Positions 1,636 to 15,988 of a DNA stretch of 64,000 nt are shown here, one piece after another. The stretch spans positions 62,001-126,000 of the forward strand of contig NZ_CAJHAD010000008.1 of assembly GCF_904846285.1 (NCBI RefSeq). The letters are read 5' to 3'. How positions within the stretch are numbered: position 1 is the stretch's first letter; the number at the start of each line of letters is the position of its first letter. The position numbers and the translations under genes were made by a program. The DNA comes from Psychrobacter immobilis. GTDB lineage: Bacteria > Pseudomonadota > Gammaproteobacteria > Pseudomonadales > Moraxellaceae. The notes beneath the pieces are model-generated. The model was given only the letters and a program-made list of their open reading frames with translations, was not told the DNA's origin and searched no databases.

Positions 1636-3831
1636 TTAGATAACCTCGCGCGTCGTTTGAGCAGTTGCAGCATCGTCATTTTTAGCATTATCAAAACCGC
1701 TATGGCGTAGTAAGGCATCGATACTGGCGCTGCGACCACGGAAATTCTCAAAATTGGTCTTGGCAGGGAAGCTACCGCCCACTGATAAGATGGTTTCACG
1801 GAAGGCTTTACCAGTAATTGGGTTAAAAATACCTTCTTCTTCAAACTTACTAAAGGCATCAGCAGACAACAACTCCGCCCATTTATACGAGTAATAACCC
1901 GCCGCATAACCACCGGCAAAAATATGACTAAAGCCATTGGCAAAGCGGTTGTAATCAGGCGTCTGCATGATAGCAATATCATCGCGCACGGCATTTAAAG
2001 CCGCTAAAATACCATCATAATCAAGCGCTGGTGTGTGTGCATGAATCAATAAGTCAAACAGTGCAAATTCGATTTGACGTAAGGTTTGCATACCACTTTG
2101 AAAGTTTTTTACCGCCAGCAAGGCTGAAAGTTTGTCTTTCGGTAATGGCTCACCAGTCTCGACATGGCTACTAATCAGCGCAATACCTTCAGCATCCCAC
2201 GCCCAGTTTTCCATAAATTGACTGGGCAATTCGACCGCATCCCACTCAACGCCATTAACACCAGCGACATCGCCAACTGTCACTTGGGTCAATAAATGAT
2301 GTAGACCATGACCAAACTCGTGGAACAAGGTTAGTACTTCATCATGAGTTAATAGGCTTGGTTTGCCATCAAGGGCAGGGGTGAAGTTACCGACCATAAA
2401 GCAGACGGGTAGCTGTTCATGGTTTTTCTCGTCGTAAGTATAACGCGACTGAAAACCGCTCATCCACGCGCCGCCACGTTTATCGCTACGCGCAAACAAG
2501 TCAAAGTAAAAGCCACCAAGCAAGTTATCATCCGCATCAAATAATTGATAAAAACTTACCTCATCGTGCCAGCGTGATACAGATTCACTGTGCTCTTGTA
2601 CCTTGATACCGTATAAACGCTCGACAATAGCAAATAAACCGTTAATTACTTTTGGCAATGGGAAATACGGACGTATCTCTTCTTGCGATAAACTAAACTC
2701 GCTTTGTTTGACTTTTTCAGCGATATAAGCGCTGTCCCACGGCTGTAAGTCAGTAATACCATAATCCTGCGCGTATTTTTGCAGCTGTGCTAAATCTCGC
2801 TTAGCTGCTGGGGTCGCTTGCGTGGCCAAATCTCTTAAAAAGGTTTCAACTTTCGTTACGCTATCTGCCATTTTGGTCGATAGTGAAACGTCTGCATAAT
2901 GATCAAAACCTAATAGCTTGGCCTTCTGCGCGCGTAATTGTAGAATTTGACTCATGATATCGTCGTTATTGAGTGATTCGCCTTTGGTATTGGTATGCTT
3001 ATCGAACTCAGAAGCGCGGGTAACATAAGCGCGGTAAAGCGTTTCGCGCAGATTGCGATCATCCGCATGAGTCATGACGGCAAGGTAAACCGGGATATTT
3101 AAACTTGCCACATAATAAGGAGTTGGTAGTGCGTCGATATCTGCTTGGGTGATCGTACCGCGGGCAAGCTCGCGGGCTTTATATTGTTCACCAGCATCTG
3201 CCAGTAGTGCAAGTCCACTTTCGGTTAACCCTGCTAACTGTTCTTGGTTAAGCGGCATGGCATACGCCTGAGTCGCATCCAATATATGGTCTGAGAACGT
3301 CGCGGATAAGGTGGAGAGCTCGCTTTGGATTGCAGCAAATTTTTCTTGTTCAGCTTTTGGTAGTGCCACGCCTGATAGCTCAAAGCTACGTAACGCAAGC
3401 TCAATAGCCCGCGCTCGTGCTGGCTCAAGGGTAGCAAAAAAATCAGTGTCATTGACGATAGTTTGATAACGACTAAATAATGGCTGATGCTGTCCAACCC
3501 TTGTGCCATAAGCAGACAGCTTAGGTAGCAGCTCATGATGTACATGACGAATCTCATCATTGCTCATGACGCTATTGAGGTGCGACAAAATACCCCAACT
3601 GCGATCCAACGCCAGATTGATATGATCAAAAGTCATGATATCGCTCAAGGCTTGCTCAGCGCTGAAATCACTAGCATTATTATTGCTATCAGTATTGGCG
3701 CTCATGTTGTCTAAAAAGGCATTGGCAGTATCGATGGCACTGATAATTTGGTTTTGTAAGGTATCCGGTGCGACATTGTCAAAATCGACAAGGCGTAAAT
3801 TTGCAGAAATAGAAATCATAAAAGTATCCAA
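1636..3831 (-). CDS. prlC: Oligopeptidase A (M3 zinc metallopeptidase)
   Basis: This 731-residue protein matches M3A peptidases in length. The zinc site LFHEFGHGLHHLL (HExxH) lies near residue 500 and is followed by the downstream Glu region (GVEWDAVELPSQFMENW). Other family signatures include KNFQSG and FSHIFAGGYAAGYYSYKWAE. Oligopeptidase A is cytosolic and degrades short peptides, including signal-peptide remnants. The C-terminus (SGFDNAKNDDAATAQ...) is a short polar tail. The stop codon abuts the yheV start. The divergent Balon gene begins 440 bp away, so each has its own promoter. Confidence 0.95.
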   Translation of the reverse strand: MDTFMISISANLRLVDFDNVAPDTLQNQIISAIDTANAFLDNMSANTDSNNNASDFSAEQALSDIMTFDHINLALDRSWGILSHLNSVMSNDEIRHVHHELLPKLSAYGTRVGQHQPLFSRYQTIVNDTDFFATLEPARARAIELALRSFELSGVALPKAEQEKFAAIQSELSTLSATFSDHILDATQAYAMPLNQEQLAGLTESGLALLADAGEQYKARELARGTITQADIDALPTPYYVASLNIPVYLAVMTHADDRNLRETLYRAYVTRASEFDKHTNTKGESLNNDDIMSQILQLRAQKAKLLGFDHYADVSLSTKMADSVTKVETFLRDLATQATPAAKRDLAQLQKYAQDYGITDLQPWDSAYIAEKVKQSEFSLSQEEIRPYFPLPKVINGLFAIVERLYGIKVQEHSESVSRWHDEVSFYQLFDADDNLLGGFYFDLFARSDKRGGAWMSGFQSRYTYDEKNHEQLPVCFMVGNFTPALDGKPSLLTHDEVLTLFHEFGHGLHHLLTQVTVGDVAGVNGVEWDAVELPSQFMENWAWDAEGIALISSHVETGEPLPKDKLSALLAVKNFQSGMQTLRQIEFALFDLLIHAHTPALDYDGILAALNAVRDDIAIMQTPDYNRFANGFSHIFAGGYAAGYYSYKWAELLSADAFSKFEEEGIFNPITGKAFRETILSVGGSFPAKTNFENFRGRSASIDALLRHSGFDNAKNDDAATAQTTREVI

Positions 3832-4271
3832 TATTAATAAGAGAAGGATTGTTCATTGCGAGGTTTGAGTTTTGTTATATATTTTTTGTGATATAGGTTC
3901 AATTATATAGAGTATCTAAAAGATGGGTATCAATCGCTTGGAATACAACCCTTTACTGTATATCTCCTCTTAAAGTAAATAGATGTGGAGAGTATAAAAA
4001 GTTGCGGTAGAGAGATTGCTATTAATGTTGGCTAAGCTTCACTTACAAAGCGTCATCATTTACTTGCAAATTAACCCTACAGAGAGTGGGGTTAAGTTGT
4101 TAGCATCATAGTAATGCAATGGCTATAACAAGTCGTTTTACTATTAAGCAGCCTTTAAGTATTAAGCTATAAATATAATCAATTAACCTGTAAATATATA
4201 AGCATGACGATAAGTATAAAAAATTTGCTTTAATAAGCAAACCAATGATAATAAAACAAGGAGCAGTATCT
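3832..4271. promoter_or_regulatory. Divergent intergenic region prlC / Balon-family gene with leader hairpins
   Basis: This 440-bp AT-rich spacer has no gene I can support. A consensus TATAAT at 4174-4179 could be the -10 of the Balon gene, but no good -35 sits at the right distance. A hairpin (TTAACCC / GGGTTAA, 4071-4095) lies upstream of it. A second hairpin, TTTGCTT-TAAT-AAGCAAA (4224-4241), would lie in the leader 30 nt before the start codon. A clear Shine-Dalgarno AAGGAG is at about 4258-4263. Confidence 0.45.
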
Positions 4272-5384
4272 ATGAAAGCAACTCTTAAAAGCTTACGTGA
4301 AACCAAAGCCAATCCAGCCGTTAGTATTTTTGTCAAAACGCATCGTGAGCATCCTGATAATCAAAAAGATCCTATCTCTTTAAAAAACCAATTAAAAGTT
4401 GTCGAAGAACGCTTAAATAATGAATATGATAAGCGTACCGCGACCACTATCTTAGAAAATATTCAAAATAAAACCAATGAGCTTAATCATAACTATAACC
4501 TAGATACCTTGGCTATATTTGCCAGTACCGATGATGTGCAAATCGTTCGTATGCCTATTGATACGAAAGAACGAGTAATTATCTCTGATAGATTTGCGAC
4601 GCGTGATTTGGTTCGCGATATGGCGAGTGCCGTTCATTATTATACGGTGGTATTGACGCGTGATAAGGCACGTCTAATTGAAGCATCTAACGATCGTGTG
4701 GTGAGAGAATTTGATCAGCAGGCGGATGCGCAAAACAATATGGAAAACATTCCCTTTCCTATTGAAAATAATGGTCTATATACGACTGGTGATGCAGGCT
4801 CTGATCGTTCAGCGAATAATGAAAGTAGTTATCTAAAAGAGTTCTTTAACCAAGTAGATAAAAGTGTGCAAGAGTTATGGGGCGAGCATAAAATGCCGCT
4901 AGTAGTCGTGGGTGATGCAAAAAATATCGGTTACTATAAAGATGTTTGTGACCGTCCAGAAAATATTATTGCCACCGTCTCAAACGCCACAAACTTAGAA
5001 GAAGGTAGCGCCCAGCATATTGTTGATAGTGTGCAAGAAGCGGTAGAAGGCTATCGCTCGTCGTTACATCAAGCTGCTATGGGCGAGATTGACAAAGCGC
5101 GCGGTGCAAATATGCTGCAGACAGATTTACAAGAAGTCTATCGCAGTGCTTTCCAAGGCGTTGGCGAAACCTTATATGTCCGTCGCGGTTATATGCAACC
5201 TGCCAAAATCGATGAAAAAGCGCAGACATTAAGTATGGCAGATGATGCGACAGCAGAAGGCATAACTGATGACGCCGTTGGCGAAATCATCGAACATGTC
5301 ATCCATAATGGCGGTAAAGCTGTATTTATGCCGCAGGATCTTATGGGTGAAGATCAGCCAATTGCTCTAGTGACGCGCTATTAA
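4272..5384 (+). CDS. balon: Balon-family ribosome hibernation factor (aeRF1-like)
   Basis: This 370-residue protein has the three-part layout of bacterial homologues of archaeo-eukaryotic release factor 1: an N domain (about 1-150, MKATLKSLRETKANPAVSIF... and KARLIEASNDRVVREF), a middle domain (about 165-285, SSYLKEFFNQVDKSVQELW, MPLVVVGDAKNIGYY) and a C domain (about 286-370, ending HNGGKAVFMPQDLMGEDQPIALVTRY). In Psychrobacter urativorans this family was shown to be Balon, which occupies the A site of idle ribosomes with EF-Tu during cold and stress. The GGQ of true release factors is absent; around 171-190 the sequence reads TTGDAGSDRSANNESSYLKE. The ATG at 4272 is preferred to one 27 bp upstream because AAGGAG precedes it at good spacing. 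It is monocistronic, with its own terminator. The assignment rests on recognising the family, not on a search. Confidence 0.88.
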   Translation: MKATLKSLRETKANPAVSIFVKTHREHPDNQKDPISLKNQLKVVEERLNNEYDKRTATTILENIQNKTNELNHNYNLDTLAIFASTDDVQIVRMPIDTKERVIISDRFATRDLVRDMASAVHYYTVVLTRDKARLIEASNDRVVREFDQQADAQNNMENIPFPIENNGLYTTGDAGSDRSANNESSYLKEFFNQVDKSVQELWGEHKMPLVVVGDAKNIGYYKDVCDRPENIIATVSNATNLEEGSAQHIVDSVQEAVEGYRSSLHQAAMGEIDKARGANMLQTDLQEVYRSAFQGVGETLYVRRGYMQPAKIDEKAQTLSMADDATAEGITDDAVGEIIEHVIHNGGKAVFMPQDLMGEDQPIALVTRY

Positions 5385-5437
5385 TCGGTTGCTGATATTT
5401 TAATGGATTAGCCAGCGTCACAATATAGGTATAATAT

Positions 5438-5472
5438 AAGAGCATTGGTTCGCACGAATCAATGCTCTTTTT
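5438..5472 (+). terminator. Terminator of the Balon-family gene
   Basis: Fifteen-bp arms AAGAGCATTGGTTCG (5438-5452) and CGAATCAATGCTCTT (5455-5469) pair with one G-U wobble and are followed by a run of five T. It lies 53 bp after the stop. Confidence 0.9.
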
Positions 5473-5582
5473 CATTGAATGTAGGCTTAATTTTATCTTA
5501 TTATTTAACGATGACGATAAGTATTTAATAAAGTGCTACTCACTCTAATTCTATAAATACTGAGTTTATAACTGATAAATTT

Positions 5583-6341
5583 ATGACTAATACCACCTCT
5601 TTTGTTTTAACCAGCTACAACATTCATAAAGGCATGTCGCCGATGAATCGCCAAGTCAAGATACAGGGTATCGCTCAAGCGCTTGATATCATTGGCTCAG
5701 ACATACTTTGTCTACAAGAAGTGCAGGGTCAAAACCTCAAGCGCAATATGCAATATAACGAATACCCTGACCAATCTCAGCATGAATGGTTTGGGGAGTA
5801 TCTACAATTGCAAAATAGCTACGGTAAAAACTCAGAGTATGAAAATGGTCATCATGGCAATGCGGTGCTGAGTCGCTTTCCGCTAGATCCAAAGCATAAC
5901 GTCAATATCACCGTTAATAAGCTTGAGCAGCGCGGTGTCTTGCACTGTGAAGTGCAGCCGCTAGGTTGGGAGATGCCGGTAGTGGTGTTATGTGCTCATT
6001 TAAACCTCTTCGAGCGCGACCGCATCAAGCAATACGAAGCCATCTCCAATTATGTGCGTAATGAGATTGGGCCCGACCAGCCACTGATTTTGGCGGGTGA
6101 CTTTAATGACTGGAAAAAAATGTCTTGTGACAGACTTGCATCGAGCTTAGGCATGACCGAAGCCTTTAAACATTGCCATGGCAAATTACTGCCAACTTTC
6201 CCCGCAAAGCTACCTGTGCTGAGTTTAGACCGTATCTATGTGCGCAATCTAAGGGTAAAAGATGCTTGGGTACATACTGGCAAGCCTTGGTCAACGCTGT
6301 CAGATCATTTGCCACTTAGTGCAGAGTTGGCATTGCTATAA
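5583..6341 (+). CDS. Endonuclease/exonuclease/phosphatase-fold hydrolase
   Basis: This 252-residue protein carries the exonuclease III-like (EEP) motifs in order: TSYNIHKG near residue 11, DILCLQEVQG (metal-binding Glu) near 40, LAGDFNDW near 165 and SDHLPL near the C-terminus. The NIHKG form matches YbhP/YafD-like proteins. Substrates in this superfamily range from DNA abasic sites to phospholipids and the sequence does not decide between them. There is no signal peptide, so it is probably cytoplasmic. The ATG has no strong Shine-Dalgarno but fits the family start. The next gene follows at 60 bp in the same direction. Confidence 0.85.
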   Translation: MTNTTSFVLTSYNIHKGMSPMNRQVKIQGIAQALDIIGSDILCLQEVQGQNLKRNMQYNEYPDQSQHEWFGEYLQLQNSYGKNSEYENGHHGNAVLSRFPLDPKHNVNITVNKLEQRGVLHCEVQPLGWEMPVVVLCAHLNLFERDRIKQYEAISNYVRNEIGPDQPLILAGDFNDWKKMSCDRLASSLGMTEAFKHCHGKLLPTFPAKLPVLSLDRIYVRNLRVKDAWVHTGKPWSTLSDHLPLSAELALL

Positions 6342-6401: not shown

Positions 6402-7397
6402 ATGTCTGATAAACAACTACCAACGACACAACACGCCGTACTAATACGCGAGTTTGGCGAACCTGAAGTCATGATATATCAAGACGGTGTGGCTATTCCT
6501 AAATTAACGGATAACCAAGTATTAGTAAAAATCGCTTATGCCGGCATCAATCCCGTCGATTACAAAACCCGTCAAGGTAAAGGTTGGGGCGCTGAGGCGA
6601 TTCAAAAAGATAAATTTAATAAAAACGAGCCTGCTATTTTAGGCTGTGATGTTGCTGGTATCGTCGTTAAAAGTAATAGTGATAAGTTTGCAATCGGTGA
6701 GCAAGTCGCGGCACTGACCTTTGACGGTGGCGGTTATGCAGAGTATGTTGCGGTCGATGCTAATCTACTGGCAAAAATTCCTCAGGCGCTGACATTAGAG
6801 CAAGCAGGCGCACTACCTTGTATTGGACAAACGGCGCTGCAATTTGTCGAGTTTTCTGATATTAAAAACGGTGAGCATGTTGTTATCAATGCGCCAGCCG
6901 GCGGCGTTGGGCATTTAGCCATTCAGCTATTGATGGATAAAGTGACGCAAGATAATGTAAAAGTAACCGTTATTTGCTCACCCGAGAAATATGCCAAACT
7001 TGACGATTTAATAGATAAAAGTAAGCTGGCAGGTTGGATTGATTATACCAAAGATGATACTTTTCGTGACTTACAAGCCGATGTGCTACTGGACTTGGTC
7101 GGTGATGATGCGGGTGTAAGCGCGCTAAGCGTCATCAAGTCTGGTGGCCGCGTCAATGTCTTACCAACGATTTGGGTTGATAAACTGCAAGCAGCGGGTA
7201 GCGAGAAGAACTTAAAGGTGGCAGGTTATAAAGCGCAGCGTAGTGGGGAAGATATGGCACGGGTTTTACAGCTTGTTGCCGATGGCAAGTTGACTCTGCA
7301 AATTCAGCAGACCTATCCATTGTCTGAAGTAGTGGCTGCACACCGCGAGCTAGAAAAAGGCGATACCTTTGGTAAGATTGTACTAAGAACAAGCTAA
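6402..7397 (+). CDS. MDR-superfamily NADP-dependent oxidoreductase
   Basis: This 331-residue zinc-independent medium-chain dehydrogenase/reductase resembles quinone oxidoreductases. Near the N-terminus are VLVKIAYAGINPVDYKTRQG and CDVAGIVV; the nucleotide loop is NAPAGGVGHLAIQLL (about 165-179); the end, GDTFGKIVLR, is typical. The Cys cluster that binds structural zinc in true alcohol dehydrogenases is missing. It probably reduces quinones or enones with NADPH; the substrate is unknown. It ends 11 bp from the convergent alkB. Confidence 0.88.
   Translation: MSDKQLPTTQHAVLIREFGEPEVMIYQDGVAIPKLTDNQVLVKIAYAGINPVDYKTRQGKGWGAEAIQKDKFNKNEPAILGCDVAGIVVKSNSDKFAIGEQVAALTFDGGGYAEYVAVDANLLAKIPQALTLEQAGALPCIGQTALQFVEFSDIKNGEHVVINAPAGGVGHLAIQLLMDKVTQDNVKVTVICSPEKYAKLDDLIDKSKLAGWIDYTKDDTFRDLQADVLLDLVGDDAGVSALSVIKSGGRVNVLPTIWVDKLQAAGSEKNLKVAGYKAQRSGEDMARVLQLVADGKLTLQIQQTYPLSEVVAAHRELEKGDTFGKIVLRTS

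Positions 7398-13411: not shown

Positions 13412-15988
<2,577 letters not shown>

Follow-up and report, generated by a model that had tools for sequence, protein, structure and literature searches.

The closest described system to the gene analysed here is Balon of Psychrobacter urativorans (AOC03_06830), which is represented by three PDB entries (8rd8, 8rdv and 8rdw) of P. urativorans ribosomes holding Balon with RaiA, Balon with mRNA and tRNA, and Balon with EF-Tu(GDP). The published model comes from this congeneric species; in that description Balon has neither NIKS nor GGQ, both known from aeRF1, and its elements are an HP motif, a lasso loop, a bL27 trap and, at the C terminus, a β-hairpin for EF-Tu (Nature 2024; PMC10901736). 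The same article places the gene usually in a stress-response operon, often beside raiA, an arrangement that is typical but not defining, and for a relative, P. arcticus, a knockout has already been published (PMC10901736). Under the model, Balon would enter the A site with no requirement for mRNA, its HP motif would contact the decoding centre, a loop would wrap around A2602, and the bL27 tail would be trapped near the peptidyl-transferase centre. EF-Tu(GDP) would then join through the C-terminal domain of Balon, and ribosomes would thereby be kept inert, some of them also with RaiA. The mycobacterial proteins Msmeg1130 and Rv2629 (NF052288; 8v9j, 8v9k and 8v9l) share the fold and the proposed role.

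The window, i.e., the whole 64,000-nt stretch of DNA analysed here, holds an intact 370-codon gene that the initial annotation had assigned to the Balon family, and features at this locus are listed in Table 1. We show that the product is almost certainly Balon, the bacterial aeRF1 homologue that acts as a ribosome hibernation factor. A phmmer search against all PDB chains matched residues 1-370 to chain B of 8rd8 (E = 5.8e-202) and also returned 8rdv and 8rdw; beyond Balon, one chance-level match to a ribosomal protein was found up to E = 1. The alignment with 8rd8_B runs end to end with one gap and 301 of 370 residues identical (81.4%), and identity is even across the three domains (98/120, 135/164 and 68/86, with domain limits set by us). 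The full-length match also supports the N-M-C layout proposed earlier. The NCBIfam equivalog NF052287 ('AOC03_06830 family ribosome hibernation factor') was matched over its full profile (1-361 of 361) at 525.8 bits, nearly 200 bits above its cut-off of 330, and it recognizes all 23 members of our protein alignment as well. The nearest named relative, whose isolate carries the label Psychrobacter immobilis A-11, is identical at 367 of 370 residues, a figure to be read with the possibility that records very near the window genome are absent; this identity places the window genome in Psychrobacter. The protein is thus already known, being a same-genus ortholog of the founding member of its family, from which it differs by one additional residue, 68 substitutions and one gap.

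Table 1 Positions of the Balon gene, its sequence signals and its neighbours in the window
Feature	Position	Strand	Basis or remark
Balon ortholog CDS, 370 aa + stop	4272-5384	+	full-length 8rd8_B match, NF052287, PF18845
His27-Pro28, sole HP dipeptide	4350-4355	+	same position in 8rd8_B
Shine-Dalgarno AAGGAG	4258-4263	+	direct reading; conserved in upstream-region alignment
Candidate -10 box GATAAT	4247-4252	+	inside conserved stretch AATGATAATAAAACAAGGAG
Conserved non-coding core TTACAAAGCGTCATCATTTACTTGCAAA	4043-4070	.	within block at about 4042-4120
Second conserved block AAAAGATGGGT...AATACAACC	3912-3952	.	upstream alignment
Intrinsic terminator hairpin	5438-5469	+	terminator scan; folding z -3.81
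M3-family oligopeptidase, divergent upstream neighbour	1636-3819	-	
Small DUF2387 protein			beyond the M3 peptidase
Endonuclease/exonuclease/phosphatase-family gene, downstream	5583-6341	+	
Alcohol-dehydrogenase-family gene, downstream	6402-7397	+	

Two comparisons separate this protein from its nearest kin. The mycobacterial model NF052288 scored only 24.4 bits, far below its cut-off of 480, and we therefore rejected the Msmeg1130 type, which is a different equivalog, and assign the window protein to the Psychrobacter type of Balon. Within the baeRF proteins, a member of another family acting in peptide release or ribosome rescue instead of hibernation would belong to the same superfamily, and the models of family 7 (PF18849, 28.7 bits against a cut-off of 27.2) and family 6 (PF18848, 28.1 against 27.5) do pass, if barely. 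However, the middle domain falls to baeRF family 3 (PF18845) at 107.4 bits, so that no other subfamily offered a better match, the Balon equivalog scores 525.8 bits, and GGQ, which aeRF1 needs for peptide release, was absent from the 370 residues searched, as was NIKS. We regard a release or rescue factor from another baeRF family as very improbable and as refuted on sequence. Least probable of all, to a degree that is practically negligible, is a methyl-accepting chemotaxis protein, a reading that draws on the molecule name of chain B in 8rd8 (and of the Balon PDB entries) and on the 'chemotaxis protein' label of three plasmid homologues but is refuted by the cryo-EM entries themselves and by a Pfam scan that listed no chemoreceptor domain up to E = 1; the label was apparently carried over from an erroneous annotation.

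Balon as the preferred identity is also consistent with its motifs. The protein shares the HP site with P. urativorans Balon, both lack GGQ and NIKS, and all 23 Psychrobacter proteins in the alignment (23 of 23) keep H27 and P28 unchanged. This dipeptide probably corresponds to the decoding-centre HP motif of published Balon. Outside the named Psychrobacter set, the same position was compared in 12 loci (L098 excluded) and reads HP in four (L095, L099, L100 and L105), FP in seven (L094, L096, L097, L101, L102, L104 and L106) and SP in one (L103), indicating that, in this sample, it is the proline that is shared throughout, and not the histidine. Replacement of His by Phe in L096, L097, L101, L102, L104 and L106, or by Ser in L103, occurs with the proline kept in homologues from the family that are 39.6-53.1% identical.

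An AlphaFold2 model (23 sequences) was mediocre, with a mean pLDDT of 64.8 and a pTM of 0.46. Searched with Foldseek, this low-confidence model nevertheless placed the three Balon chains first (8rdw_B, 8rd8_B and 8rdv_B; E = 1.6e-46 to 3.7e-46, 80-81% identity). There were 31 matches in total at E <= 0.001; by title, those other than the three Balon chains are chains of Msmeg1130 and Rv2629, at 12-15% identity, and of aRF1/eRF1 and Pelota/Dom34, with a few titles leaving the chain unnamed; the aeRF1/Pelota chains stand among ranks 5-31, and the window protein is unlike them in having neither GGQ nor NIKS. Whole-chain superposition was poor (TM 0.42, rmsd 17.9), so the fold match depends on the sequence and on individual domains. 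The modelled structure therefore supports the family assignment while adding little beyond the sequence evidence.

The reading frame itself requires one choice. A longer mechanical ORF opens at 4245, upstream of the ATG at 4272, and we rejected this start because conservation among the relatives sets in at M1 (MKATLK) as read from 4272 and because the equivalent upstream ATG in locus L021 is out of frame. The Shine-Dalgarno sequence noted in the initial annotation is present and lies 8 nt from the ATG. When the window was aligned with 72 relatives (L061 was excluded as too short upstream), this sequence and the start codon were at some of the best conserved positions. If GATAAT served as a -10 box, the leader would be very short, at approximately 14 nt; no conserved -35 box accompanies it in the upstream alignment, and it is absent from the matches of the consensus promoter scan. 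Downstream, the terminator called earlier was recovered as a hairpin of 14 pairs with a 4-nt loop, followed by a short T run. None of 200 shuffles was as stable as the stretch 5405-5480 (z = -3.81); the count of terminator-like sites, 2 found against 1.4 expected, would by itself be non-significant. The description of the gene as monocistronic fits the layout, in which the upstream neighbour is divergent and the downstream neighbour begins past the predicted hairpin. The search for known RNAs in or near the gene gave nothing credible, its sole match being a yeast snoRNA (E = 0.95, below the gathering score). Elsewhere in the window, a TPP riboswitch (RF00059, 15731-15855, minus strand, 60.2 bits against a gathering score of 54.3) stands upstream of ORF 13412-15523 (minus strand), which we take from its translation to be thiC.

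The Balon gene occurs once in the window genome, as does baeRF family 3, with no second member, and RaiA/HPF (PF02482) is likewise encoded by one gene. RMF was undetected in the window genome by a search whose control recovered E. coli RMF. By orthology with the P. urativorans protein, we infer that Balon of the present strain would keep ribosomes idle in the same manner, and it may be induced by stationary phase or cold; the separate switching-on under cold or starvation that the initial annotation expected would be in line with this. In contrast to the typical published arrangement, the gene is solitary here: it belongs to no stress operon, and raiA is on a different contig.

The neighbourhood is stable. 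Of the 73 named relatives, 72 have the divergent M3 peptidase beside Balon, the exception (L061) being a sequence that opens just 412 bases before the Balon gene. For the phosphatase gene on the downstream side the count is 64 of 73, at distances of 173 to 2048 nt; this gene was not found in L019, L028, L036, L037, L039, L040, L042, L065 and L073, where L065 and L073 are short contigs (counts tallied by us from the individual rows). Two loci labelled P. urativorans (L051 and L055), which may not be the published strain, have the divergent M3 peptidase upstream as in the window; the distance to their downstream phosphatase-family gene is 1148 and 1305 nt, compared with about 200 nt in the window. 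Among eight loci examined from other genera of the family, L105 retains the order M3 peptidase - Balon - phosphatase and L106 retains the phosphatase and DUF2387 genes with no peptidase match; in the other six (L099-L104), none of the neighbours of the window's Balon gene was found.

NF052287 matched all 105 Psychrobacter genomes searched, 104 of them above the cut-off; the match is split in G048 and G075 and partial in G095, and early stops interrupt the Balon reading in the named loci L059 and L066. These broken copies (G048, G075, G095, L059 and L066) could reflect either faulty assembly or genuine loss. An evenly drawn sample of the family gave matches in 118 of 249 genomes (115 above the cut-off). 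Psychrobacter itself contributes 91 of the 118; among the 158 genomes of other genera, 27 matched and 24 exceeded the cut-off (counted by us row by row), and these are in genera g7, g10 and g15. At the level of the order, PF18845 was found in 14 of 293 genomes, 13 above the cut-off and eight of the 14 from Psychrobacter. Taken together, the counts at genus, family and order level indicate that Balon is a regular component of Psychrobacter genomes and has a scattered distribution among their relatives. Balon is present in 105/105 genomes of the genus at a stable locus, and the window contributes an ortholog from the same genus that can be compared with the published protein. New details are limited to a conserved upstream element and a set of plasmid relatives, both of modest interest.

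The divergent intergenic region measures 452 bp in the window and 370-796 bp in the measurable relatives, and it is mostly poorly conserved apart from two blocks that stand out, at about 3912-3952 and about 4042-4120. The core of the latter has the consensus TTACAAAGCGyyATCATTTrCTTGCAAA, following the pattern TTACAAAGCG-NN-ATCATTT-N-CTTGCAAA, and occurs with at most three mismatches in 64 of 74 sequences (the window and 73 loci) and with at most seven in 68; the sequences without it at the latter tolerance are L058, L060, L065, L067, L074 and the truncated L061. Allowing three mismatches in the family sample, the core was recovered in 77 of 91 genus genomes, with 14 of the 91 giving no match, and in 0 of 158 others, and a reversed-pattern control returned 0 matches. 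It is single-copy in the window genome, and we rejected a dispersed repeat because one copy per genome was seen wherever the core was found. Its first half alone (TTACAAAGCG, one mismatch) occurs 7 times in the window against 8.0 expected, i.e., not above chance. The distances from the core to the Balon and M3 peptidase genes both vary (sd 69 and 50 nt), so that spacing does not assign it to either gene. We consider it possible, though rather doubtful, that the core and its flanks form a dedicated Balon control site tying hibernation in Psychrobacter to a specific regulator; if it is such a site, it could show how Balon gets switched on.

In the block at about 3912-3952, GATGGGT is present in 22 of 28 aligned sequences, three others being cut short there and three lacking it. 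Read on the minus strand, this block contains GGTTGTATT, 13 nt and ACCCATCTTTT, which resembles a heat-shock sigma-32 type promoter and would, as such, be directed toward the M3 peptidase. Judged by titles, a literature search combining Psychrobacter, Balon and promoter returned nothing relevant, and the word 'promoter' is absent from the main text of PMC10901736.

Full-length relatives of Balon were also found on mobilizable Moraxella plasmids, at 6001-7107 of L096 (NZ_CP068111.1) and 5001-6107 of L097 (NZ_CP135141.1). Their products are approximately 53% identical to the window protein, and the genes are flanked on one side by a Qat anti-phage system that includes an MqsA-type antitoxin and on the other by an alpha/beta-hydrolase and the NhaA antiporter. 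Matches were obtained in 14 plasmid records, 5 of them from Moraxella. A literature search for Balon in combination with plasmid-borne or Moraxella yielded, by title, nothing relevant. The Moraxella plasmid copies suggest that mobile DNA can carry ribosome hibernation with it. In L101, which lies on a 2.4-Mb contig, gene order resembles that of the Moraxella plasmids, as judged from ORF positions and translations only. With regard to phage origin, the sole match, at 36% coverage, was one unannotated 4.4-kb record labelled Listeria phage. A distant relative (5001-6014 of L098, NZ_CP058188.1; 21.7% identity, E = 9e-6) is carried by a plasmid of Enterobacter hormaechei that is conjugative; genes for a cold shock domain protein and for the anti-adapter (iraM) lie nearby, and IS1 copies flank the stretch.
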